Position numbers and translations under genes: made by a program
Assembly (NCBI RefSeq): GCF_003945765.1
Contig: NZ_CP027712.1
Location: forward strand, 2,046,001-2,110,000
Source: Pseudomonas chlororaphis subsp. chlororaphis
GTDB taxonomy: Bacteria; Pseudomonadota; Gammaproteobacteria; Pseudomonadales; Pseudomonadaceae
Reading direction: 5' to 3'
Length of the DNA stretch: 64,000 nucleotides
The notes under the pieces: model-generated
Database searches by the model: none
What the model was told of the DNA's origin: nothing
The model's input: the letters and a program-made list of their open reading frames with translations, nothing else
Shown here: piece after piece, positions 51,311 to 62,426 of the stretch
Layout of the letters: each line of letters opens with the position of its first letter
How positions within the stretch are numbered: position 1 is the stretch's first letter

Positions 51311-54028
51311 TCACAGGGGGATTGCGACGGGCTGTGCCGAGCTGGCCAGCAGACGTTTGATTTCGGGGACGCAGGAGCCGCATTGAGTGCCGCAGCCCAG
51401 CTCCTGTTTCAGGCCATCGAGGTCCAGGCCGCGGGAGATCCCGGCACAGACTGCGCTTTGGCTGACGTTCTTGCAGTTGCACAAGGTCTTGCCGTTCGAC
51501 GTAATCAACCCGGCAGCCCCTGGCGGTGCGCTCATCGGCGCCAGCAGCCAGCGGCGCAGTTGCTCATCGGCCTTGCCTTCCAGCCACAGGTTCTGCAGCC
51601 AGTGCCGGGCCAGGGTTTCACCGGCCAGGCGAATGGCGGTGATCCGCCCCTGTTCGATGCGTACCCGCTTGCCGATGGAGCGCCGAGGATCGTCATAGGC
51701 CAGCACCGGGCCTTCGTTGAGCCCCAGCAACTGGTCGATGTCCTTGAGCAGTTGCGGCGCCGGCGCCTCGGCGTTGGCCACCCGCAGCAACAGGGCCGGG
51801 CGTTCGCGGCCGGCCAGGCTCAGGCTGACGTAGGCGAAACTTTCACAGAGCGGGCGCAGGGCTTCGAAATGCCGCTGCACGTCGCCTTCGATCAGGGCGA
51901 ACAATTGCCACGGCAGTTGGACCGGCTCCAGGCGTACACCGCTGTGCTTGAGTTCCGGCTGTTTGGACAGTGGATCGAACGCCGGTTGAGTCACGGCGTT
52001 GACGCCGCCCTTGAGAAACCGATCGCCCCAGTGCATCGGCAGGAAAGCCTGGCCCGGGCGCACGCTGTCGTCATCCGCTACTGCGACTGTCACGCTGCCG
52101 CGACGGCTTTTCAGCGAGACCAGGTCACCCGCTTGCAGGTTCTGCCGGCGTAGTTCGTCCGGGTGCAGGCTGAGGACGGCCTCGCTGACGTGCCCGAACA
52201 GCTGGGCCGCGGTGCCGGTGCGGCTCATGCCGTGCCATTGATCCCGCAGGCGGCCGGTGATCAGGGTCAGGGGGAAGCGCGCATCCCGCTGTTCCTTGGC
52301 CGCGCGATACGGGTCGCTGACGAAGTGCGCCCGCCCGCTGGCGGTGGGGAAGCGGCCGTCGACGTACAGCCGCGGCGTCCCCTGTTCGGCGCCAGCGGGG
52401 AAGGGCCATTGCTGCGGGCCGATACGGTCGATCAGCGCGTGACTGATGCCGGAAAGGTCCAGGTCGCGGCCGCGGGTCAGCAGTTTGTACTCATCGAACA
52501 GCTGGGCAGGCGTATCCAGGGCGAACAGGCTGGGCTGTTGCGGACGCAGGCGCTGTTCCAGGCGCCGGGCGAAGTCCAGAGTGATGGCCCAATCCGGGCG
52601 TGCTTCGCCCGGCGCGGCCACGGCGCGGCGCACATGGGAGATGCGCCGTTCCGAGTTGGTCACGCTGCCTTCCTTCTCGCCCCAGCTGGCGGCGGGCAGC
52701 AGCAGGTCGGCAAAGGCCGCGGTCTCGGTGGTGCGAAAGGCTTCCTGCAGGACCACGAACGGGCAGGCCAGCAAGGCTTCTCGCACCGCGTTCTGGTCGG
52801 GCAGCGATTGCGCCGGGTTGGTGCAGGCGATCCACAGCGCCTTGATCTTGCCGCCGCGCAGCTGTTCGAACAGCTCGATCGCGGTCAGGCCGGGGTTGGC
52901 CGGCAATTGCTCGACGCCCCAGTAGGCCGCGACTTCAGCCCGGTGCTCCGGGTTGGCGGCGTCCCGGTGCCCCGGCAGCAGGTTCGACAGGCTGCCGGTT
53001 TCCCGGCCGCCCATGGCATTCGGCTGGCCGGTGAGGGAGAAAGGGCCGGCCCCGGGGCGCCCGATCTGCCCGGTGGCCAGGTGCAGGTTGATCAGTGCGC
53101 TGTTTTTCGCGCTGCCGGCAGTGGACTGGTTCAGCCCCATGCACCACAGCGACAGAAAGCTCGGCGAGGTGCCGACCCATTCGGCGCACTGGCGCAGTTG
53201 CTCGACGCTGATGCCGCACAGCTGCGCGACCATATGCGGGGTGTAGTCGTGGACCAGGTTCTTCAGCTCGGCCAGGCCTTCGGTATGCGCCTGGATGAAG
53301 TCGCGATCGATCCAGTCCTGCCACAGCAGCAGGTGCAGGATGCCGTGGAACAGCGCGACATCGGTGCCGGGCAGGATCGCCAGGTGCAAATCGGCCAGGT
53401 CGCAGGTGTCGGTGCGTCGCGGGTCGATGACGATCACTTTCATCTGCGGCCGCAGGCGCTTGGCCTGCTCCAGGCGGCGGAACAGCACCGGATGGGCGTA
53501 GGCCATGTTGCTGCCGACGATCATCACGCAATCGCTCAGTTCGAGGTCTTCGTAGCTGCAGGGCGGGGCGTCGGCGCCCAGGCTGCGTTTGTAGCCGACC
53601 ACCGCCGAGGACATGCACAGCCGCGAATTGCTGTCGATGTTGTTGGTGCCCACCAGGGCCCGGGCCAGCTTGTTGAAGGCGTAGTAATCCTCGGTAAGCA
53701 ATTGCCCGGAGATATAGAAGGCCACGCTGTCCGGGCCGTGTTCGGCGATGGTTTCGGCAAACAGGTTGGCCGCGTGTTCCAGTGCGCTGTCCCAGTCGGT
53801 GCGGCTGCGCGCCAGGGCCTTGCCCAGGCGCAATTCCGGATACAGGGCGCGGGCCGCGAGGTCGCCGGTCAGGTGCAGGGTGGAGCCTTTGCTGCACAGT
53901 TTGCCGTGGTTGGCCGGGTGGCTCGGGTCGCCACTGACGCCGAGGATGCGTTCGCCGTCGTGCTCGATCAGCACGCCACAGCCAACGCCGCAGTAACAGC
54001 AGGTCGAGGCGGTCGTCTGGCGGTTCAT
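51311..54028 (-). CDS. nasC: Assimilatory nitrate reductase catalytic subunit
   Basis: This protein has 905 residues from ATG 54028, sharing one base with the nirD stop. N-terminus: [4Fe-4S] site 'CCYCGVGCG'. Central molybdopterin domains (residues ~60-680: 'GSNMAYAHPVLFRR', 'WCMGLNQS', 'GRETGSLSNLLPGHRD'), then a dinucleotide-binding region. C-terminal ~60 residues: BFD-like [2Fe-2S] domain 'CNCKNVS...CGTQCGSCVPE'. It reduces nitrate to nitrite in the cytosol. P. aeruginosa names it nasC (nasA in others). It lies between nirD and cobA. Confidence 0.94.
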   Translation of the reverse strand: MNRQTTASTCCYCGVGCGVLIEHDGERILGVSGDPSHPANHGKLCSKGSTLHLTGDLAARALYPELRLGKALARSRTDWDSALEHAANLFAETIAEHGPDSVAFYISGQLLTEDYYAFNKLARALVGTNNIDSNSRLCMSSAVVGYKRSLGADAPPCSYEDLELSDCVMIVGSNMAYAHPVLFRRLEQAKRLRPQMKVIVIDPRRTDTCDLADLHLAILPGTDVALFHGILHLLLWQDWIDRDFIQAHTEGLAELKNLVHDYTPHMVAQLCGISVEQLRQCAEWVGTSPSFLSLWCMGLNQSTAGSAKNSALINLHLATGQIGRPGAGPFSLTGQPNAMGGRETGSLSNLLPGHRDAANPEHRAEVAAYWGVEQLPANPGLTAIELFEQLRGGKIKALWIACTNPAQSLPDQNAVREALLACPFVVLQEAFRTTETAAFADLLLPAASWGEKEGSVTNSERRISHVRRAVAAPGEARPDWAITLDFARRLEQRLRPQQPSLFALDTPAQLFDEYKLLTRGRDLDLSGISHALIDRIGPQQWPFPAGAEQGTPRLYVDGRFPTASGRAHFVSDPYRAAKEQRDARFPLTLITGRLRDQWHGMSRTGTAAQLFGHVSEAVLSLHPDELRRQNLQAGDLVSLKSRRGSVTVAVADDDSVRPGQAFLPMHWGDRFLKGGVNAVTQPAFDPLSKQPELKHSGVRLEPVQLPWQLFALIEGDVQRHFEALRPLCESFAYVSLSLAGRERPALLLRVANAEAPAPQLLKDIDQLLGLNEGPVLAYDDPRRSIGKRVRIEQGRITAIRLAGETLARHWLQNLWLEGKADEQLRRWLLAPMSAPPGAAGLITSNGKTLCNCKNVSQSAVCAGISRGLDLDGLKQELGCGTQCGSCVPEIKRLLASSAQPVAIPL

Positions 54029-54345
54029 CAGCCGGCATCCCGCAGGGCCAGCAGCACGCGGCCGTTTTCCACCCGCGCCAGATGGTGATGGGCGCAGCCG
54101 ATATCCGGTGCCTGTGCTTCGCCGGACTCCAGGTCGATCTGCCAGTTGTGCAACGGGCAGGCGACCGTCTTGCCGTAGATCAGCCCCTGGGACAGCGGCC
54201 CGCCCTTGTGCGGGCAACGGTCGTCGAGGGCGAAGACTTCGTCGTCGCTGGTGCGAAAGATCGCGATATCGCCCTTGGGGCCGTTGACGATGCGCGAGCC
54301 CAGGGCGTTGATCTCGTCCAGGGCGCAGATATCCAGCCAGTTCAT
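54028..54345 (-). CDS. nirD: Nitrite reductase small subunit (Rieske-type)
   Basis: This protein has 105 residues from ATG 54345 with GGAGGTG upstream; the start overlaps the nirB stop by 4 bases. A Rieske fold is expected, with 'CPHKGGPLSQG' and 'CPLHNWQIDLE' giving a CxH...CxxH-type ligand set (CPH, CPLH), so unlike many NirD proteins it appears able to bind a [2Fe-2S] cluster. It pairs with NirB. Confidence 0.93.
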   Translation of the reverse strand: MNWLDICALDEINALGSRIVNGPKGDIAIFRTSDDEVFALDDRCPHKGGPLSQGLIYGKTVACPLHNWQIDLESGEAQAPDIGCAHHHLARVENGRVLLALRDAG

Positions 54346-56795
54346 GGCAGCACCTCCAGTTGCTTGACGCGGATCGGCTCGAACTCTTTTTTCAGCTGCG
54401 GTTGTTCCAGGCGTTCCTTCCACGGGTCCTGTTCGAAGGACAGGGAGAATTGCAGGCGCTCGTTGAGGGCCTTGCGCCGTTGCGGGTCTTCGATGATGGC
54501 CTGCTTGATGTGCGCCATGCCGACCCGCTGCAGGTAGTGCACGGTGCGCTCCAGGTAGAAGGCTTCCTCGCGGTACAGCTGCAGGAAAGCGCCGTTGTAT
54601 TCGCGCACTTCGTCGGCGGTTTTCAGCTTGACGAAGAACTCCGCGACCTCGGTCTTGATCCCGCCGTTACCACCGATATACATCTCCCAGCCCGAGTCGA
54701 CGCCGATGATGCCGACGTCCTTGATCCCGGCCTCGGCGCAGTTGCGTGGGCAGCCGGAGACCGCCAGCTTGACCTTGTGCGGCGACCACATGTTGAACAG
54801 GTCATGCTCCAGCTCGATGCCCAGCTGGGTGGAGTTCTGCGTGCCGAAGCGGCAGAACTCGCTGCCGACGCAGGTTTTCACGGTGCGGATGGACTTGCCG
54901 TAGGCGTGGCCGGAGGGCATGTCCAGGTCTTTCCAGACCCCGGGCAAATCCTGCTTCTTGATACCCAAAAGGTCGATGCGCTGGCCGCCGGTGACCTTGA
55001 CCATCGGCACCTGGTATTTGTCCGCCACGTCGGCGATACGCCGCAGTTCGGAGGGGGTGGTGACGCCGCCCCACATCCGCGGCACCACCGAATAGGTGCC
55101 GTCTTTCTGGATATTGGCGTGGGCCCGTTCGTTGATCAGGCGCGATTGCGGGTCGTCCCTGGCCTCGCCCGGCCAGGTGGCAATCAGGTAGTAGTTCAGC
55201 GCCGGGCGGCAGGTGGCGCAGCCATTGGGCGTACGCCAGTTCAGGTAGCTCATGGTGCCGGCGATGGTCAGCAGGTGCTGTTCGCGGATCGCCTGGCGGA
55301 TCTGTCCGTGGTTGAGGTCGCTGCAGCCGCAAATGGCTTTCTCGCTTTTCGGCTTGACGTCGGCCGCGCCGCCCACGGTGTTGATCAGGATCTGTTCCAC
55401 CAGGCCGGCACAGGAGCCGCAGGAGCTGGCGGCCTTGGTGTGCTTCTTGACCTCGTCGACGCTGAACAGGCCGTGCTCCTGGATCGCCTTGACGATGGTG
55501 CCCTTGCACACGCCGTTGCAGCCGCAGACTTCGGCGCTGTCGGCCATGCTCATGGCCTTGTCCTGGCCCTGGTGGCCGACGTCGCCCAAAGCGTTCTCGC
55601 CGAACATCAGGTGGTCGCGGATCTCGCCGATGGCGTGGTTCTCGCGGATCTGCCGGAAGTACCAGCCGCCGTCGGCGGTGTCGCCATACAGGCAGGCGCC
55701 GACCAGGATGTCGTCCTTGATCACCAGCTTCTTGTACACGCCGCCGATGGGGTCGGAGAGGGTGATGGTCTCGGTGCCTTCGCCGCCCATGAAGTCGCCG
55801 GCGGAGAACAGGTCGATGCCGGTGACTTTCAGCTTGGTCGAGGTCACCGAGCCCTTGTAAGTGGCGAAGCCCAGTTGAGCGAGGTGGTTGGCGCAGACCT
55901 TGGCCTGTTCGAACAGCGGCGCCACCAGGCCGTAGGCGATGCCGCGATGGCTGGCGCATTCGCCGATGGCGTAGATGCGTGGGTCGTAGGTCTGCAGGGT
56001 GTCGTTGACCAGGATCCCGCGGCTGCACGGCAGCCCGGCTTTTTCCGCCAGCTCGGTATTGGGCCGGATGCCGGCGGCCATCACCACCAGGTCGGCGGGG
56101 ATGATGTCGCCGTTCTTGAACTGCACCGAGCCGACCCGGCCATTGCCCGCGTCGTGCAGGGCCTGGGTCTGTTCGCTCAGGCGGAATTTCAGGCCGCGGC
56201 TTTCCAGGGCGCTTTGCAGCAGTTGGCCGCTGGTCTTGTCCAGCTGGCGCTCCAGCAGCCATTCGCCGATGTGCACCACGGTCACGTCCATGCCGCGCAG
56301 CATCAGGCCGTTGGCGGCTTCCAGGCCGAGCAGGCCGCCGCCGATGACCACTGCGTGCTTGTGGGTCTTGGCGGTGTCGATCATCGCCTGGGTGTCGGCG
56401 ATGTCGCGGTAGCCGATCACACCCTGCAGGTCGTTGCCGGGAATCGGCAGGATGAACGGGGTCGAGCCGGTGGCGATCAGCAGGCGGTCGTACTCGGCTT
56501 CGCTGCCGTCTTCGGCGATCACCCGGCGCTTGACCCGGTCGATCTGCACCACCTTGCGGTTGAGCAGCAGCTTGATGTGGTTGTCCAGGTACCAGCTCAG
56601 GTCGTTGAGCACGATCTCTTCGAAGGTCTGTTCGCCGGCCAGTACCGGGGAGAGCAGGATGCGGTTGTAGTTGGTGTGGGGTTCCGCGCCGAAGACCGTG
56701 ATGTCGTAGAGCTCATTGCTCAGCTTGAGCAGCTCTTCCAGGGTGCGTACCCCGGCCATGCCGTTGCCGATCATCACCAGCTTGAGTTTGTTCAT
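54342..56795 (-). CDS. nirB: Assimilatory nitrite reductase large subunit (NADH, siroheme, FAD)
   Basis: This protein has 817 residues from ATG 56795, preceded by GGAGAG. N-terminal FAD/NAD domains: 'MIGNGMAGVRTLEELL' and 'HAVVIGGGLLGLEAANGLM'. Middle: BFD-like [2Fe-2S] cysteines ('CGCNGVCKGT', 'SSCGSCAG'). C-terminal siroheme/[4Fe-4S] domain: 'CVGSEFCRFGTQ' and 'SGCPRNCAEAGI'. It reduces nitrite to ammonium with NADH. It heads the nirB-nirD-reductase-cobA operon behind a NasT-type leader. Confidence 0.96.
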   Translation of the reverse strand: MNKLKLVMIGNGMAGVRTLEELLKLSNELYDITVFGAEPHTNYNRILLSPVLAGEQTFEEIVLNDLSWYLDNHIKLLLNRKVVQIDRVKRRVIAEDGSEAEYDRLLIATGSTPFILPIPGNDLQGVIGYRDIADTQAMIDTAKTHKHAVVIGGGLLGLEAANGLMLRGMDVTVVHIGEWLLERQLDKTSGQLLQSALESRGLKFRLSEQTQALHDAGNGRVGSVQFKNGDIIPADLVVMAAGIRPNTELAEKAGLPCSRGILVNDTLQTYDPRIYAIGECASHRGIAYGLVAPLFEQAKVCANHLAQLGFATYKGSVTSTKLKVTGIDLFSAGDFMGGEGTETITLSDPIGGVYKKLVIKDDILVGACLYGDTADGGWYFRQIRENHAIGEIRDHLMFGENALGDVGHQGQDKAMSMADSAEVCGCNGVCKGTIVKAIQEHGLFSVDEVKKHTKAASSCGSCAGLVEQILINTVGGAADVKPKSEKAICGCSDLNHGQIRQAIREQHLLTIAGTMSYLNWRTPNGCATCRPALNYYLIATWPGEARDDPQSRLINERAHANIQKDGTYSVVPRMWGGVTTPSELRRIADVADKYQVPMVKVTGGQRIDLLGIKKQDLPGVWKDLDMPSGHAYGKSIRTVKTCVGSEFCRFGTQNSTQLGIELEHDLFNMWSPHKVKLAVSGCPRNCAEAGIKDVGIIGVDSGWEMYIGGNGGIKTEVAEFFVKLKTADEVREYNGAFLQLYREEAFYLERTVHYLQRVGMAHIKQAIIEDPQRRKALNERLQFSLSFEQDPWKERLEQPQLKKEFEPIRVKQLEVLP

Positions 56796-56858: not shown

Positions 56859-56919
56859 CAAAAAAGGCGCCCCGCCAGTTGCCTGGCAGGACGCCTTTGT
56901 CCGGTCCCGTTCTCTCGGG
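56859..56919 (-). promoter_or_regulatory. ANTAR-type antitermination leader of the nirB operon
   Basis: On the minus strand hairpin P1 (56906-56919) is CCCG-AGAGAA-CGGG and P2 (56889-56902) is GGAC-AAAGGC-GTCC. Both six-base loops have A at position 1 and G at 4, as in ANTAR protein targets. P2 shares its 3' half with the 5' arm of a long terminator (56860-56897, AAGGCGTCCTGCCAG pairing with CTGGCGGGGCGCCTT, GCAA loop, then six Ts). NasT binding to P1/P2 would prevent the terminator. Confidence 0.85.
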
Positions 56920-56975
56920 AAAACCCATCCTTCGTCGTTGAAGGCCGGGTCGTATGTGCTGTTGGGAGAATTAAT

Positions 56976-56990
56976 GCAGCGGTTGTGCCA
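56976..56990 (-). promoter_or_regulatory. Sigma-54 promoter of nirB operon
   Basis: TGGCACAACCGCTGC on the minus strand fits TGGCACN5TTGC, with GG and GC at the correct 10-base spacing. It lies 57 bases before P1 of the leader, so transcripts begin just ahead of the antiterminator site. Confidence 0.75.
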
Positions 56991-57103
56991 AGTCCCGCCA
57001 ATGGCGGTTTCAGTAGGCCTGGAAACCTGTCTCAGGCCGGTAAGGTGGGTTTTCTGCACCGATTCAAAGCGTCTTGCCCACTTCTGGCGCACGCTGCGCG
57101 ATC

Positions 57104-57239
57104 CCTGTAGCCGCTGCCGCAGGCTGCGATCGACGGCGTAGCCGGCGTAAGGCGGCATTCCCTACCTGCGGGTAAAACCGCGTCGTCAGGTTCTGCGGCC
57201 CCTGCGGTGCCGGTCGCAGCCTGCGGCAGCGGCTACAGG
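57104..57239. repeat. Paired REP, CCTGTAGCCGCTGCC class, widely spaced
   Basis: Arms CCTGTAGCCGCTGCCGCAGG and CCTGCGGCAGCGGCTACAGG are ~95 bases apart, the longest spacing in this window, just after the kinase gene and before the nirB promoter. Confidence 0.9.
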
Positions 57240-57251
57240 AAAACAGTGAGG

Positions 57252-58922
57252 TCAGTGATGCAGGAACAGGTACAGCAACAGCAGGTTGAGCAACAGCGAG
57301 ACCAGCGCCAGGGTGCGCCAGACTTTCAAGGGCTCGCGTTCCAGCAGCGGTCTGGGGCGCACGCTGAGGCTGCGGCGCTCGCCCTGTTCCAGCACCAGCA
57401 ACCACTCTTCGGCGGTTTCATAGCGCTGGGCCGGATCGGCCTGTACCGCGCGTTCCAGGCTCTGTTCGAGCCAGTCCGGCAGGTCCGGCCGATAGCGGCT
57501 GGCGCTGACCGGGGTGGTGAAGCGCGGGCGCTGGAAGGCTTCGATTTCGCCGTAGGGAAAATGCCCGGTCAGCAAGTGGTAGAGGGTCACGCCTACCGCG
57601 TACAGGTCCTGCCGCGGTGTCGGCGCCACGCCGTTGAAAGCTTCGGGGGCGATATAGCTCGGAGTGCCGGGCAGCAGGTGCGCCTGGTCCTCGGACAGGC
57701 CGGGGCAATAGGCCAGGCCGAAATCCAGCAGGCGCAGTTCGCCGTCGTCCCCGAGCAGCAGGTTTTCCGGCTTGATGTCGCGGTGCAGGATCTGCCGGCG
57801 GTGCAGCAGGCCCACGGCCCGCAGCAGGCGCTCGGCCAGGTCCTGCCACTGTGCCAGCGGCAAGGGGCCATGTTGTTGCAGATGCTCGGCCAGGGTCTGC
57901 CCCGGGTATTCGCGCATCACGTAATACAGATGCTGGCGGCTGGTCGCGGCATGCACTTCGGGAAAGTGCCGGCCGGCCACCCGGCGCAGGAACCACTCCT
58001 CTGACAGCAGCGATTGCCCGGCCTGATGATCGTCGTGCAGATGACCGGGCAGGGTTTTCAGCAGCCAGGGTTGTTGTTGCGCATCGAGCACGCGGTACAG
58101 CAGCGATTGCTGGCTGTGCCCGAGCACCTCGACGACCTGCCAGCCTTCGAAGTGCTGGTCCGGTTTGAGAGGCGGCGGCAGTGGCCATTGCTGCAAGTGA
58201 ATCAGGGCGTCGCCGATGGAGCTTTCGCCCAGGGCTTCGACCCGCACCAGCAGGGCGCTGGCATTGTCCTGGCTACCGGCCAGGTGCGCGGCGCTGACCA
58301 GGGTCTGCACCGCGCTGTCGAGGTCGGGCTGGTCGCGCAGGATCGCGGCGATGGCGGTGTCGCCCAGGGTCGCCCAGACGCCATCGCTGAGCATCAGGAA
58401 ACTTTCGTTTTCCCGCAGCTCGCCGTCGAGGAAGTCCACCACCAGGTGCTGGTCCAGGCCCAGGGCACGCTTGAGCACATGCTGCATGCCGGGTTGGTCC
58501 CAGACATGATCGTCGCTGATGCGTTGCAACTGATCGGCATGCCAGCGATAGACCCGGCAATCGCCGACATGGGCCAGGGTAAAGCGCCGGCCGCGCAGCA
58601 CCAGGGCGCTGACGGTGGTCAGCAGCGGCTGGCCGCCGCCGTTGGCCTGCAACCAGCGATTCTGCGCCAGCAGCAGGCGTTCCAGGGCCTGGGCCACGGC
58701 CCAGGTTTCCGGGGTGGCGTAGTAGTCCAGCGCCAGCGCCTGCAAGGTCGAGCGCGCGGCCAGGCCGCCGTCGGCGCATTGGCTGACACCGTCGGCGATG
58801 GCGAACAGCAGGCCCTTGCTGGCGGCCAGGGTCGGCGCCGGGGTGACCAGGCGCAAGGCGTCCTGGTTCTCCGCGCGCGGACCGATGGCGCTGGCCTGGG
58901 CGTGGCTCAGTCGCAGGCTCAT
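57252..58922 (-). CDS. Fused PP2C phosphatase and serine/threonine protein kinase, membrane-anchored
   Basis: This protein has 556 residues. Residues ~10-240: PP2C-type phosphatase with 'ENQDAL', 'AIADGVSQCADGG' and 'LMLSDGVWATLGD', 'GSQDNASAL' (metal Asp residues present). Residues ~265-520: protein kinase with 'HRDIKPENLLL' (catalytic Asp), 'LLDFGLAY' (DFG) and 'GTPSYIAPEAF'; the ATP-binding Lys is in 'WLLKTLPG', but the Gly-rich loop is reduced ('LGHSQQSLL'). One C-terminal membrane helix (~535-553). It follows the nitrate transporter by 7 bases, so it probably senses or tunes nitrate uptake. PP2C-kinase fusions are unusual. Confidence 0.93.
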   Translation of the reverse strand: MSLRLSHAQASAIGPRAENQDALRLVTPAPTLAASKGLLFAIADGVSQCADGGLAARSTLQALALDYYATPETWAVAQALERLLLAQNRWLQANGGGQPLLTTVSALVLRGRRFTLAHVGDCRVYRWHADQLQRISDDHVWDQPGMQHVLKRALGLDQHLVVDFLDGELRENESFLMLSDGVWATLGDTAIAAILRDQPDLDSAVQTLVSAAHLAGSQDNASALLVRVEALGESSIGDALIHLQQWPLPPPLKPDQHFEGWQVVEVLGHSQQSLLYRVLDAQQQPWLLKTLPGHLHDDHQAGQSLLSEEWFLRRVAGRHFPEVHAATSRQHLYYVMREYPGQTLAEHLQQHGPLPLAQWQDLAERLLRAVGLLHRRQILHRDIKPENLLLGDDGELRLLDFGLAYCPGLSEDQAHLLPGTPSYIAPEAFNGVAPTPRQDLYAVGVTLYHLLTGHFPYGEIEAFQRPRFTTPVSASRYRPDLPDWLEQSLERAVQADPAQRYETAEEWLLVLEQGERRSLSVRPRPLLEREPLKVWRTLALVSLLLNLLLLYLFLHH

Positions 58923-58929
58923 GGACGGC

Positions 58930-60141
58930 TCAGACCCGCGCCGCCGTGACGGCGGCGGAGCCCCAGGTGGTCCGCCAGCGGCGTTTCACCCCGTGCAGGC
59001 CGAACCAGGCCAGCACACCCAGGCTGGCGAACAGCCACAGGGCCAGTTGATAGCTGCCGGTGCTTTGCTTGATCGCGCCCATGCCCGCGGCCAGGGCGAA
59101 ACCGCCGATGCCGCCGGCCATGCCGATCAGCCCGGTCATCACCCCGATCTCGCGGCGGAAACGTTGTGGCACCAACTGGAAGACCGCGCCGTTACCCGCA
59201 CCCAGGCCGAGCATGGTGCACACGAACAGGGCCAGGGCCGCGTAGGAGCTGGGCAGGTTGAAACCGACCGCGGCGATGCACACCGCCGCGAAGCTGTACA
59301 TCACCAGCAGGGTGCGAATGCCGCCGAAACGATCGGCCAGCGCGCCGCCCAGCGGGCGCATCAGGCTGCCGCCGAACACGCAGGCGGCGGTATAGTAGCC
59401 GGCGGTGACCGGGCTCAGGCCGTACTGGTCGTTGAAGTAGCCGGGCAGGGCGCTGGCCAGGCCGATGAAGCCGCCGAAGGTCACGCTGTAGAAGAACATG
59501 AACCACCAGCTGTCGCGGTCGCCGAGGGCCTTGAAGTAGTCGGCCATGGATTTGGCCTTGGGCCGTTCCGGAGCGTTCCTGGCCAGCCAGGCGAACAGCA
59601 CCAGGGTCAGGATCAGAGGGATCAGGGCGAAGCCGAACACGTTGCTCCAGCCGAAGGCACCGGCCAGCAACGGCGCGAACAGCGCCGCGAATACCGTGCC
59701 GGAGTTGCCGGCCCCGGCGATGCCCATCGCCTTGCCCTGGTGCTGTGGTGGATACCATTGCGAGGCCAGCGGCAGGGCCACGGCGAACGAAGCGCCGGCC
59801 ATGCCCAGGAACAGCCCCAGCAGCAGGGCCTGTTCATAGCTGTGGATGCCCAGCTTCCAGGCGCAGAACAGCGCGCCGATGACAATCACCTGGCCGATCA
59901 GCCCGGCGGTCTTGGGGGACAGGCGATCGGCCAGCAGGCCCATGGCGAACCGCAGCACGGCGCCGGCCAGGATCGGCGTGGCCACCATCAGCCCGCGCTG
60001 CTGGGTGGTCAGTTGCAGGTCGGCGGCGATCTGCACGGCCAGCGGGCCGAGCAGATACCAGACCATGAAGCTCAGGTCGAAGTAGAGGAAGGCCGCGAAC
60101 AATGTCGGGGTGTGGCCGGATTTCCAGAAGCTTGAATTCAT
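58930..60141 (-). CDS. nasA: Nitrate/nitrite MFS transporter (NarK/NasA type)
   Basis: This protein has 403 residues with 12 predicted helices. Signatures of the nitrate/nitrite porter family: 'FDLSFMVWYLLGPLA' in helix 1, 'RFAMGLLADRLSPKTAG' after helix 2 and 'GMAGGIGGFALAAGMG' late. GAGGTG precedes the ATG. It imports nitrate for assimilation; P. aeruginosa uses the name nasA for this gene. It has its own sigma-54 promoter and antitermination leader and is cotranscribed with the kinase fusion. Confidence 0.93.
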   Translation of the reverse strand: MNSSFWKSGHTPTLFAAFLYFDLSFMVWYLLGPLAVQIAADLQLTTQQRGLMVATPILAGAVLRFAMGLLADRLSPKTAGLIGQVIVIGALFCAWKLGIHSYEQALLLGLFLGMAGASFAVALPLASQWYPPQHQGKAMGIAGAGNSGTVFAALFAPLLAGAFGWSNVFGFALIPLILTLVLFAWLARNAPERPKAKSMADYFKALGDRDSWWFMFFYSVTFGGFIGLASALPGYFNDQYGLSPVTAGYYTAACVFGGSLMRPLGGALADRFGGIRTLLVMYSFAAVCIAAVGFNLPSSYAALALFVCTMLGLGAGNGAVFQLVPQRFRREIGVMTGLIGMAGGIGGFALAAGMGAIKQSTGSYQLALWLFASLGVLAWFGLHGVKRRWRTTWGSAAVTAARV

Positions 60142-60241
60142 CGCGCACCTCAGCTGTTAAGAGTCTCGAAAGGAGTCATGAGCTTTTGCGTGGGGCGCCA
60201 TTACGGCCGCTCCACCGGCCCCGGGCTGTGGGGCCAAAACG

Positions 60242-60322
60242 AAAAAACGCCGCAACCCGTTTCGCCTGGGGCGAGAAGGGTGTGCGACGTCTTTGTCGTA
60301 GGTGGGGCAACCGCCGTTGGTT
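60242..60322 (-). promoter_or_regulatory. ANTAR-type antitermination leader of the nitrate transporter gene
   Basis: P1 (60309-60322) is AACC-AACGGC-GGTT and P2 (60285-60298) is CGAC-AAAGAC-GTCG on the minus strand; both loops have A1 and G4. The 3' part of P2 begins the terminator ACGTCGCA...TGCGGCGTTTTTT (60242-60290), which contains an inner CGCC/GGCG hairpin. Same architecture as at nirB and nasS. Confidence 0.85.
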
Positions 60323-60340
60323 ACCTGTATCGATTACATA

Positions 60341-60355
60341 GCCAGATTTGTGCCA
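60341..60355 (-). promoter_or_regulatory. Sigma-54 promoter of the nitrate transporter gene
   Basis: TGGCACAAATCTGGC on the minus strand fits the -24/-12 pattern with GG and GC 10 bases apart, about 20 bases before the leader hairpins. Confidence 0.75.
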
Positions 60356-60380
60356 AGAGTTGCAGTCCTGGTGTTCCGGA

Positions 60381-60447
60381 TCGCGGGCAAGCCTCGCGCC
60401 TACAGAAACTCACGGTTTTCTCCGTAGGAGCGAGGCTTGCCCGCGAT
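60381..60447. repeat. Paired REP, GGAGCGAGGCTTGCCCGCGA class
   Basis: TCGCGGGCAAGCCTCGCGCCTAC and GTAGGAGCGAGGCTTGCCCGCGA are inverted, ~20 bases apart, between nasT and the transporter promoter. Confidence 0.9.
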
Positions 60448-60473
60448 GGGGCCCGCACCGGTACCGCAAGCTT

Positions 60474-61049
60474 TCAGCCCAGCAACTCGCTCATGGCGAT
60501 GATCTGCTCGGCCACCTGGATTAGCTTCTGCTGGCGGCTCATGGCCTGGCGGCGCATCAGGGTGTAGGCCTGTTCTTCGTTGCAGTCTTTCATCTTCATC
60601 AACAGGCCCTTGGCCAGCTCGATGCGCTTGCGCTCGGCCAGTTGCTGGTCGCGGGCCTGCAGCTGCGCACGCAAGGCCTGGTCGCTCTCGAAGCGGGCCA
60701 TGGCCACGTCGAGAATGGGCTGCAGGCGCTGGGCCTGGATGCCTTCGACTATGTAGGCACTGACCCCGGACTTGATGGCGTGGCGCATCACGTCGGGGTC
60801 GTGCTCGTCGGTGAACATCACGATCGGCCGTGGCTGGTCGCGGCTGACCAGCACCACTTGCTCCATCACATCGCGGCTCGGTGATTCGGTATCGATCAGG
60901 ATCACGTCCGGACGCACCGTTTCGACGCGCGTCGGCAGGTCGATGGTCAGGCCCGACTCGTCGATCACCTCGAAACCGGCTTCCATCAGGGCCGCCTTGA
61001 GCCGACCGACCTTCTTGGCGGTGTCGTTGATCAGCAGGATACGCAACAT
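60474..61049 (-). CDS. nasT: NasT, ANTAR-domain antiterminator
   Basis: This protein has 191 residues. Residues 1-120 are a response regulator receiver-like domain with Asp53 in 'ILIDTESPSRD', but the usual Lys near the end is Val ('SAYIVEG'), so phosphorylation control is doubtful. Residues ~125-190 form an ANTAR domain: 'RKRIELAKGLLMKMKDCNEEQAYTLMRRQAM' (in parts). It binds two-hairpin RNA leaders and blocks termination; NasS holds it inactive until nitrate/nitrite binds NasS. Downstream of nasS by 15 bases. Confidence 0.96.
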   Translation of the reverse strand: MLRILLINDTAKKVGRLKAALMEAGFEVIDESGLTIDLPTRVETVRPDVILIDTESPSRDVMEQVVLVSRDQPRPIVMFTDEHDPDVMRHAIKSGVSAYIVEGIQAQRLQPILDVAMARFESDQALRAQLQARDQQLAERKRIELAKGLLMKMKDCNEEQAYTLMRRQAMSRQQKLIQVAEQIIAMSELLG

Positions 61050-61064
61050 GGTCTCGGGCTCCTG

Positions 61065-62276
61065 TCAGCGGCTGGCGAGAAGAGGGGAGCTGTCGCTCAT
61101 GGCGTGCAGCTGGAAGCTGCGGGCATAGGCGGCCGGGTCCGAACCGTCCCATAGCTTGCCGTCGATCAACTGGCTGCTGCGCATGTCCTGGCCCCAGGAC
61201 GCGACGCCGACGGCGGTGGCGGCTTCACGATAGAGCTCGAGTTGCTGCACCTGGCGCGCGATGCCCAGGTAATCCGGGTCTTCGCGCAGCAGGCCCCAGC
61301 GGCGGAACTGGGTCATGAACCACATGCCGTCGGACAGATACGGCAGGTTGACCGCGCCTTCATTATGAAAGCGTAGCGCGTGCAGGTCCTGCCAGCGGTG
61401 GCCGAGGCCGTCGGCATATTCGCCGAGCAGGCGCGGCTCGATGCAGTCCAGCGGCGCATCGAGGTACTCGCGGGCGCTCAGCAGTTGCGCGGTGCTCTGG
61501 CGGTTCTCGCGGCTCTGCTCGATGAAGCGGCTGGCCTCGAGGATCGCCATGACCAGGGCCCGCGCGGTGTTCGGGTACTGCTCGACGAAGGCGCGGGTAC
61601 AGCCGAGGACTTTTTCCGGGTGGTCGGGCCAGATCGCCTGGCTGGTGGCCAGGGTGAAGCCCAGGTTCTGGCTCACCGCGCTGGCGCTCCAGGGTTCGCC
61701 TACACAGAAACCGTCGATGCGCCCGGCCTGCAGGTGCGCGACCATTTGCGGCGGCGGCACCACCACGCTATCGACGTCCTGCAACGGGTGGATGCCCTGG
61801 GCGGCCAGCCAGTAATACAGCCACATGGCGTGGGTGCCGGTGGGGAAGGTCTGGGCGAAGGTCAGCCTTGCCCGGCTTTGGTGCACGTGCCGGTGAAGCG
61901 CTTCAGGAGTGGTCACGTTCAGGGCTTGCAGCTCTCGCGAGAGGTTGATGCTCTGGCCGTTCTGGTTCAGGCCCATCAGCACCGCCATGTCGCTGGCGTT
62001 GACCCCGCCGATGCCCAGGTGCACGGCGTAGATCAGGCCGTACAGGCTGTGGGCGGCATCCAGCTCGCCGCTCACCAGTTTGTCCCGCAGGTTGGCCCAG
62101 GATGCCTGGCGCTTGAGGTTCAGGGTCAGGCCGTAAGGCTGGGCGAAGCCCTGGGTGGCGGCGACCACCACCGAGGCGCAGTCGCTCAAGGCCATGAAGC
62201 CGAGGTTGATCGCGGTCTTTTCCGGGGCATCGCTGCCGTTGACCCAGGCCAGCGGGCTGACGGGGAGTTCGTTCAT
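61065..62276 (-). CDS. nasS: NasS, nitrate/nitrite sensor of antitermination
   Basis: This protein has 403 residues from ATG 62276 with GGAGGG 9 bases upstream. It resembles NrtA-type periplasmic nitrate-binding proteins ('INLGFMALSDCASVVVA', 'NLRDKLVSGELDAAHSL', 'FCVGEPWSASA'), but has no signal peptide, so it is cytosolic. It binds nitrate/nitrite and releases NasT. It is first in the nasST unit, which itself has a leader of the NasT-target type. It is divergent from pyrD. Confidence 0.95.
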   Translation of the reverse strand: MNELPVSPLAWVNGSDAPEKTAINLGFMALSDCASVVVAATQGFAQPYGLTLNLKRQASWANLRDKLVSGELDAAHSLYGLIYAVHLGIGGVNASDMAVLMGLNQNGQSINLSRELQALNVTTPEALHRHVHQSRARLTFAQTFPTGTHAMWLYYWLAAQGIHPLQDVDSVVVPPPQMVAHLQAGRIDGFCVGEPWSASAVSQNLGFTLATSQAIWPDHPEKVLGCTRAFVEQYPNTARALVMAILEASRFIEQSRENRQSTAQLLSAREYLDAPLDCIEPRLLGEYADGLGHRWQDLHALRFHNEGAVNLPYLSDGMWFMTQFRRWGLLREDPDYLGIARQVQQLELYREAATAVGVASWGQDMRSSQLIDGKLWDGSDPAAYARSFQLHAMSDSSPLLASR

Positions 62277-62307
62277 GGGGTGGAGCCCTCCATAAAAAAG
62301 CGTCCAT

Positions 62308-62392
62308 AAAAAAACGTCGCACCCGCGCGCCAGGCAGAGCCGGCGGGGTAACGACGCCTTTGTCTTTCGACCCACGCCGCCATTGGCCTGGG
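62308..62392 (-). promoter_or_regulatory. ANTAR-type antitermination leader of nasST
   Basis: On the minus strand P1 (62371-62392) has loop AATGGC on a GCC/GGC plus CCCA/TGGG stem, and P2 (62350-62367) has loop AAAGGC on a GAC/GTC stem; both loops have A1 and G4. The terminator (62308-62358) has the arms GCGTCG and CGACGT, inner stem ACCC...GGGT, then TTTTTTT. So NasS and NasT appear to control their own expression. Confidence 0.8.
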
Positions 62393-62411
62393 TGCTGATG
62401 CAGGTTGTGGT

Positions 62412-62426
62412 GCAAGGCATATGCCA
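62412..62426 (-). promoter_or_regulatory. Sigma-54 promoter of nasST
   Basis: TGGCATATGCCTTGC on the minus strand matches TGGC-N8-TTGC with the right spacing, about 20 bases upstream of the leader hairpins. Confidence 0.75.

Follow-up and report, generated by a model that had tools for sequence, protein, structure and literature searches.

Passages in the published accounts of the eutP/EutV, nasF/NasR and amiE/AmiR systems (PMC3369931, PMC3369936, PMC8934654, PMC7496416) describe leaders of nitrogen genes with two tandem hairpins, each capped by a six-base loop with A at position 1 and G at position 4 (A1/G4), the second of which (P2) is mutually exclusive with a terminator. Here we analyse a 64,000-nucleotide stretch of Pseudomonas chlororaphis subsp. 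chlororaphis (positions 2046001-2110000 of a 6.81 Mb single-contig genome; hereafter the window), in which the leaders of nasS, of the nitrate/nitrite transporter gene narK and of nirB likewise carry such hairpins, and which very probably holds terminators opened by the ANTAR protein NasT behind sigma-54-type promoters of three operons, the nirB site consisting of hairpins P0 and P2 plus an extra hairpin, M. Unlike the eutP, nasF and amiE systems, this locus has a −24/−12 box before all three leaders, places nasST itself behind such a leader and equips nirB with a third A1/G4 hairpin.

NasS-NasT sensing with antitermination, which the present system would have in common with Paracoccus and Bradyrhizobium, is described for those bacteria in passages of PMC3795266 and PMC6759348, and Ramesh 2012 places ANTAR-site matches ahead of nitrate transporters and nitrite reductase. 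ANTAR leaders before nitrate genes are an already known class, and the three-loop nirB form is, as far as limited searches show, new: none of the matches listed in a literature search joined third-hairpin phrases to ANTAR or NasR, no paper was found for the phrase 'narK RNA', and neither the three-loop form, nor its possible link to NasT and not NasR, nor a grouping of P11 with narK RNA under a single type of ANTAR leader was found in a search outside which most subscription journals lie. The nirBD-PA1779-cobA operon of P. aeruginosa, the same operon with, as we understand it, the same regulator, is reportedly subject to NasT antitermination (Romeo et al. 2012, Microbiology 158:1543, known to us from its citation).

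On the minus strand each leader opens with a −24/−12 box of the pattern GG-N10-GC (a TGGCA-type −24 element and GC at −12), found in all three and read here as a candidate sigma-54 promoter, and runs through tandem hairpins with stems of at least 3 base pairs into a terminator that takes in the loop and the 3′ strand of P2:

62411..62426, minus strand: nasS −24/−12 box, TGGCATATGCCTTGCA
62370..62393, minus strand: nasS leader P1, loop AATGGC at 62384-62379, seen by covariation
62353..62364, minus strand: nasS leader P2, loop AAAGGC at 62361-62356, seen by anchored conservation
62310..62361, minus strand: nasS terminator overlapping P2, fold −29.2 kcal/mol, z −1.69, 10/200 shuffles as good
60340..60355, minus strand: narK −24/−12 box, TGGCACAAATCTGGCT, all but its first base inside the Rfam model RF03032
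60306..60325, minus strand: narK leader P1, loop AACGGC at 60318-60313, seen by folding; the hairpin annotated in RF03032
60285..60298, minus strand: narK leader P2, loop AAAGAC at 60294-60289, unpaired in RF03032
60239..60299, minus strand: narK terminator overlapping P2, fold −33.6 kcal/mol, z −6.56, 0/200 shuffles as good
56975..56990, minus strand: nirB −24/−12 box, TGGCACAACCGCTGCA, drawn as a hairpin in the Rfam model RF00625
56921..56951, minus strand: nirB leader P0, loop AACGAC at 56939-56934, seen by covariation and a letter-free hairpin pick
56905..56920, minus strand: nirB leader middle hairpin M, loop AGAGAA at 56915-56910, seen by folding and conservation
56889..56902, minus strand: nirB leader P2, loop AAAGGC at 56898-56893, seen by conservation
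56863..56898, minus strand: nirB terminator overlapping P2, fold −31.7 kcal/mol, z −5.60, 0/200 shuffles as good

All the −24/−12 boxes, the six loops and the three terminators that an earlier note on this DNA had read from the minus strand were found in place, and each of those loops is a hexaloop with A1 and G4, far above shuffles when the strongest hairpin is picked with the letters left free. That note had overlooked a third A1/G4 hexaloop in the nirB leader: P0, CCUUC[AACGAC]GAAGG, lies upstream of the AGAGAA hairpin, and both are present in the minimum-energy fold of the leader (z −3.10). Judged from its sequence, the nirB leader thus has three A1/G4 hexaloops, with P0 the likely counterpart of the narK and nasS P1; the AGAGAA hairpin, which had been cast as the nirB P1, does exist but, with its G-C closing pair, is most probably an additional hairpin in the middle, M. 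A C-G pair closes P1 and P2 in the window as well as nirB P0, and this is the closing pair that NasR prefers in systematic evolution of ligands by exponential enrichment (SELEX), according to passages of PMC7496416. The loop-to-loop spacing is 23 nucleotides in nasS and 24 in narK; within nirB it is 41 from P0 to P2, 17 from M to P2 and 24 from P0 to M. Scanning the 6.8 Mb genome with a P2-plus-terminator pattern derived from these same three leaders returned three sites, all of them here, and none in the reversed control.

Beside what is observed, namely the layout of the leaders, their conservation, the covariation in nasS P1 and nirB P0 and the co-occurrence with ANTAR genes, we infer NasT binding, read-through, NtrC control and a role for M along the following lines. 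Each operon would be transcribed from its sigma-54-type promoter, presumably under NtrC control and hence when ammonium is short, and transcription would end at the leader terminator unless NasT is free. Nitrate or nitrite would make NasS let NasT go, as reported for other species; free NasT would then bind the leader, as it is being made, at its A1/G4 hexaloops and hold P2; the 5′ arm of the terminator includes the 3′ strand of P2, so that polymerase would read on. The nasST pair would so control its own operon as well. In narK and nasS the NasT site would be the known P1-P2 pair, and in nirB it would be P0 and P2 together with the extra hairpin M; the M loop likewise tends towards A1/G4, and M itself probably offers one more contact or spans the greater distance between P0 and P2. 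When nitrate is lacking, the nirB leader would stop at its terminator and yield the RNA named P11 in Rfam.

Conservation was followed in the window and 80 relatives, the best 80 of 533 NasT loci (NasT 95-99% identical; among them, the named NasT-bearing nearest relatives are Pseudomonas, and most of their names point to the fluorescens group). Leaders were located by the box pattern ahead of the gene start, which recovered 81/81 for nasS, 77/80 for narK and 63/64 for nirB, the pattern failing in 3/80 narK and 1/64 nirB leaders and nirB falling outside 17 of the relatives' loci. When the strongest hairpin with a six-nucleotide loop was taken without any rule on its letters, A1 and G4 were both present in 77/77 narK, 66/81 nasS, 63/63 nirB P0 and 61/63 nirB M hairpins, against 5-8% in shuffles. 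Under anchor patterns that partly demand these letters themselves, and that failed in 12/81 nasS leaders and 1/77 narK leaders, the P1 loops of the 69 anchored nasS leaders read AATGGC (21), AACGGC (20), AATGAC (13), AACGAC (12) and others (3), while the nasS P2 loops read AATGGC, AAAGGC, AACGGC and AATGAC, with A1 and G4 constant and the other letters varying. Six nasS leaders (L040, L045, L057, L076, L079, L087) have about 15 additional bases between P1 and P2, an insert that may strain the known spacing rule.

Covariation in nasS was assessed on 48 of 58 distinct anchored cores, after exclusion of rows with an inserted linker or of odd length and of one mis-anchored row, and in nirB on 47 sequences. 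Two-sided changes affect six of the nine nasS P1 pairs, with a covariation score matched by 0/500 shuffles, and six of the eleven nirB P0 pairs, where 0/500 shuffles reached the score and 1/500 the pair count; sequences of kin may exceed such shuffles without any structure, and a control in which the partners were slid by 1-3 columns lowered every measure in the nasS P1 and nirB P0 alignments alike. Because P2 and the inner M pairs show zero variation among the close relatives and narK scarcely varies, this support extends to nasS P1 and nirB P0 only.

The earlier note had regarded the three leaders as near-copies of one element and had called for a covariance search with an ANTAR RNA model. 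There is no ANTAR model among the Rfam matches of the leaders, and our own covariance model, R1, was built from 29 selected nasS and narK cores with promoter and terminator excluded. Genome-wide, R1 matches the leaders of the two genes from which it was built, nasS (54.8 bits) and narK (49.6 bits), the next match scoring 20.6; the nirB leader is not matched as a two-hairpin site, R1 aligning with its P2 half only (14.1 bits). The idea of near-copies survives for nasS and narK, which are of one kind, but nirB is a three-hairpin variant. Two of the leaders are matched by Rfam families:

56866..57002, minus strand: RF00625 'P11 sRNA' match, 117.5 bits (gathering 70), from promoter to terminator of the nirB leader
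60284..60354, minus strand: RF03032 narK RNA match, 78 bits (gathering 43.2), narK leader

The nasS leader reaches 34.3 bits with RF03032, below gathering (43.2). Both Rfam alignments treat the −24/−12 box, which lies ahead of the presumed transcript start, as RNA, RF03032 leaves P2 unpaired, and the entries shown for the two families bear no ANTAR label; in G026 and G127 of the class survey described below, the two models match the same place.

That the cluster is a NasT regulon, as had been proposed, is well supported by a single ANTAR gene, by the three local P2-terminator sites and by the way in which the elements co-occur with ANTAR genes, all of it evidence from sequence. The gene in question is the sole ANTAR gene detected genome-wide (1 match):

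60474..61049, minus strand: nasT, PF03861 60.8 bits (cut-off 27.3)

The receiver-like domain of NasT scores 29.8 bits with PF00072, slightly below the cut-off of 30.2, and the protein aligns over its full length with Rv1626 and EutV. In P. putida, according to passages of PMC7261876, deletion of nasT abolishes growth on nitrate, a phenotype that agrees with NasT control of all three operons and is no proof of it.

Two surveys addressed co-occurrence, one of 229 class genomes (73 with ANTAR at E 1e-4) and one of 119 family genomes (89 with ANTAR); above 40 genomes a survey runs under stricter filters, at the cost of weak matches, and absences are upper bounds. We limited the Rfam surveys to E 0.001 because RF03032 at E up to 1 gave 9 matches in the window's genome and matches in 6/14 control genomes, none above cut-off. 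At class level RF00625 occurs in 11 genomes (2 over gathering), 11/11 with ANTAR (Fisher test 2e-6; 10/10 and 6e-6 without our own genome), and RF03032 in 11 genomes (3 over gathering), 10 with ANTAR (6e-5; 9/10 and 2e-4 without our own genome). R1 at E 0.01 has matches in 25 class genomes. A lower limit of 26.8 bits, set post hoc with the list already seen, leaves 9 held-out matches, spread over 8 genomes besides our own that are without exception ANTAR-positive and have ANTAR on the matched contig (8e-5); the 18 matches below 26.8 bits, one of which lies near an ANTAR gene, were taken as chance. Across the family, 83 genomes have both RF00625 (70 over gathering) and ANTAR, 0 have RF00625 alone, 6 ANTAR alone and 30 neither; the best RF00625 sites share a contig with an ANTAR gene in 73/83 genomes and lie within 15 kb of it in 67, and R1 has matches in 66/119.

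These counts bear on what P11 is. RF00625 is typed as a gene in Rfam, and passages of PMC12080996 name P11 as an operon regulator, as would suit a small RNA that acts in trans to regulate the nirB operon and for which the leader role is secondary; but the match lies between the −24/−12 box and nirB and ends with the P2-overlapping terminator, and RF00625 is confined to ANTAR genomes in both samples (11/11 and 83/83), so that we regard a trans-acting P11 as very improbable. If instead P11 is the terminated nirB leader, the amount of it should signal that ammonium is short and nitrate absent, and two Rfam families, P11 and narK RNA, would be recast as ANTAR leaders. P11 is also discussed, in passages of PMC12080996 and PMC10977744, as a small RNA read by worms; to judge from name and operon, the PA14 P11 of those papers would be the nirB-leader RNA.

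The nirB variant was followed through the family in 85 RF00625 sites besides the window's own, with two weak second sites that lack P2 (G242, G329) dropped and three faint matches on the strand opposite strong sites not included. A loose −24/−12 match lies upstream of P2 in 85/85. With an anchor that demands AANG in the loop, C or T before it and G or A after it, P0 is found in 83/85 sites (all but G273 and G332, with the anchor in G266, AAGGCC, doubtful), its closing pair being C-G in 83/83. With letters free, A1 and G4 are found together in the P0 zone of 70/85 sites, in the middle zone of 60/85 and in the whole zone of 76/85. A hexaloop M with 4 pairs, a demand that leaves these counts no test of the pairs themselves, is present in 53/85; its loop has A1 in 46, G4 in 51 and A5 in 53, positions 2, 3 and 6 being free, its closing pair (letters free) is G-C in 52/53 and C-G in 1, which does not fit the C:G preference, and as second pair 45 have C-G and 8 have U-A. 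Spacing is narrow, at 22-24 from P0 to M in 51/52 and 17-18 from M to P2 in 50/53. In the genus g201, nine genomes lack M, and there P0 and P2 are 25-26 apart, near the 24 of narK, while in three others of the genus (G318, G326, G340) M is present as a hexaloop or enlarged. These three genomes have two RF00625 leaders each and perhaps two operons of the nirB-leader kind. Three distant genomes, L104, L106 and L111 (G036, G223, G125), have −24/−12 boxes and P1-P2 leaders broken by further hairpins, L111 with three A1/G4 hexaloops.

ANTAR sites, in the account given by passages of PMC3369931 and PMC3369936, depend on the two hairpins together, on A1 and G4 and on a limited distance. Together with C:G closing, these rules favour P0 with P2 as the canonical pair in nirB and leave M as an atypical third loop, a bridge or a spacer; P0 is the likelier P1 because it has the C-G closing pair preferred by NasR where M has G-C, and because its distance to P2 in M-less leaders is near that of narK. 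The pairing of the earlier note, in which NasT binds M and P2 and P0 merely stabilizes the 5′ end, could draw on the A1 and G4 of the family M loops, on the gap of just 2-3 nucleotides between M and P2 and on the four inner M pairs, invariant in 47 close relatives. We nevertheless consider it unlikely, given the reversed closing pair of M, the 32/85 family sites with no M hexaloop against the near-universal P0, the AANG common to P0 loops and to the P1 of narK and nasS, and the narK-like P0-P2 spacing where M is missing. A passive spacer, keeping P0 and P2 at working distance with an A1/G4 loop left by history or chance, is a more serious contender, if still short of our preference: it would suit the reversed closing pair and the tetraloops, larger loops or nothing that several genomes have in place of M, but would leave unexplained why A1, G4 and A5 are mostly kept across genera while positions 2, 3 and 6 vary.

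The preferred reading, P0 and P2 with M as an extra hairpin, may be carried a step further. It is unsettled whether an ANTAR dimer bridges its two loops or passes from the first to the second; passages of PMC8934654 argue for successive binding and suggest that the EutV dimer binds P1 first and P2 next. Rather doubtfully, we also consider that the nirB leader may be a three-loop antiterminator, tied to NasT, in which the protein would be loaded on P0 and handed on, first to M and next to P2, while the hairpins emerge, with M as a stepping stone. A natural three-loop leader, with relatives that lack the middle loop, would permit the two-loop usage of ANTAR proteins to be tested by loop swaps.

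Leader architecture may also follow regulator type, the three-loop form going with NasT and not with NasR. We called an ANTAR gene NasR-type where a NIT match lay within 1.5 kb and presumed it NasT-like where none did. Among the M-less g201 leaders, 8/9 lie 3.3-3.7 kb from a NasR-type gene (the exception being G294), and the ANTAR genes of the three genomes with P0 missing or doubtful (G273, G332, G266) are all NasR-type. An A1/G4 M loop is found in 0/11 NasR-associated leaders and in 47/72 others including our own (Fisher test 4e-5, with no ancestry correction), a contrast that comes from few lineages, 8/11 of the NasR-associated leaders being from one genus. Since 25/72 other leaders have no A1/G4 M hexaloop, M would be dispensable with NasT. 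In the protein, R140, K147 and E158 of NasT align with R142, K149 and E160, the EutV residues that coordinate G4 according to passages of PMC8934654; the residues are identical, and the numbering offset is read off the alignment.

Several observations weigh against NasT control of these leaders or against parts of it. Among the nasS leaders, 15/81 fail the letter-free A1/G4 test, the P1 count of two-sided pairs is reached by 36/500 shuffles and that of further pair types by 78/500, 23/48 sequences leave the P1 pair 8-21 open and 26/48 the pair 9-20, and in the window the 58-nucleotide P1-P2 stretch is not folded into P1 by energy alone (z −0.37, 72/200 shuffles as good). The P2 and M stems are nearly invariant among close relatives. 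NasT keeps 6/10 of the RNA contacts named for EutV, with K147L, N173S, R175Q and R177K differing. In nirB the P0-P2 distance is 41 nucleotides, while lengthening the linker by 20 nucleotides abolished EutV antitermination in vitro, as passages of PMC8934654 report, so that P0 and P2 would need M to hold the distance; M is without A1 or G4 in 7/53 family sites and without G4 in 2/63 close relatives. Finally, six ANTAR-positive family genomes lack RF00625, RF03032 matches G101 (31.4 bits), a genome without ANTAR, R1 in the family survey matches G278 (27.8 bits), which has no ANTAR and is 70% complete, and the co-occurrence counts carry no correction for shared ancestry and no tree.

The gene order on the minus strand is nasS, nasT, NarK-type transporter, PP2C-kinase fusion, nirB, nirD, nitrate-reductase-like molybdoprotein and cobA, the first of which we take to be nasS from its position next to nasT and from the literature:

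61065..62276, minus strand: nasS, NMT1-like substrate-binding protein, presumed nitrate sensor, Pfam PF13379 321.5 bits
58930..60141, minus strand: narK, NarK-type nitrate/nitrite transporter of the major facilitator superfamily, TIGR00886 310.3 bits, slightly below the cut-off of 311.7
57252-58922, minus strand: PP2C phosphatase-protein kinase fusion, between narK and nirB
54342..56795, minus strand: nirB, TIGR02374
ending at 54028 (start assumed), minus strand: nirD, after nirB, TIGR02378
ending at 51311 (start assumed), minus strand: nitrate-reductase-like molybdoprotein, after nirD, PF00384
51300-50539, minus strand: cobA, after the molybdoprotein, TIGR01469

A long inverted repeat of the GTAGCCGCTGCCGCAGGCTGCGA type occupies 57102-57241, in the gap that separates the kinase fusion gene from the nirB promoter, and resembles a Pseudomonas repetitive extragenic palindromic (REP) pair; the Rfam matches MIR918 and MIR834, both below gathering, fall on it and were rejected. 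A second inverted repeat, of the ATCGCGGGCAAGCCTCGC type, lies at 60379-60447, between nasT and the narK promoter. Two ctRNA-family Rfam matches in the window, also below gathering, were rejected. At the window edge lies an rmf RNA (RF01755, 63909-64000, minus strand, 73.3 bits).

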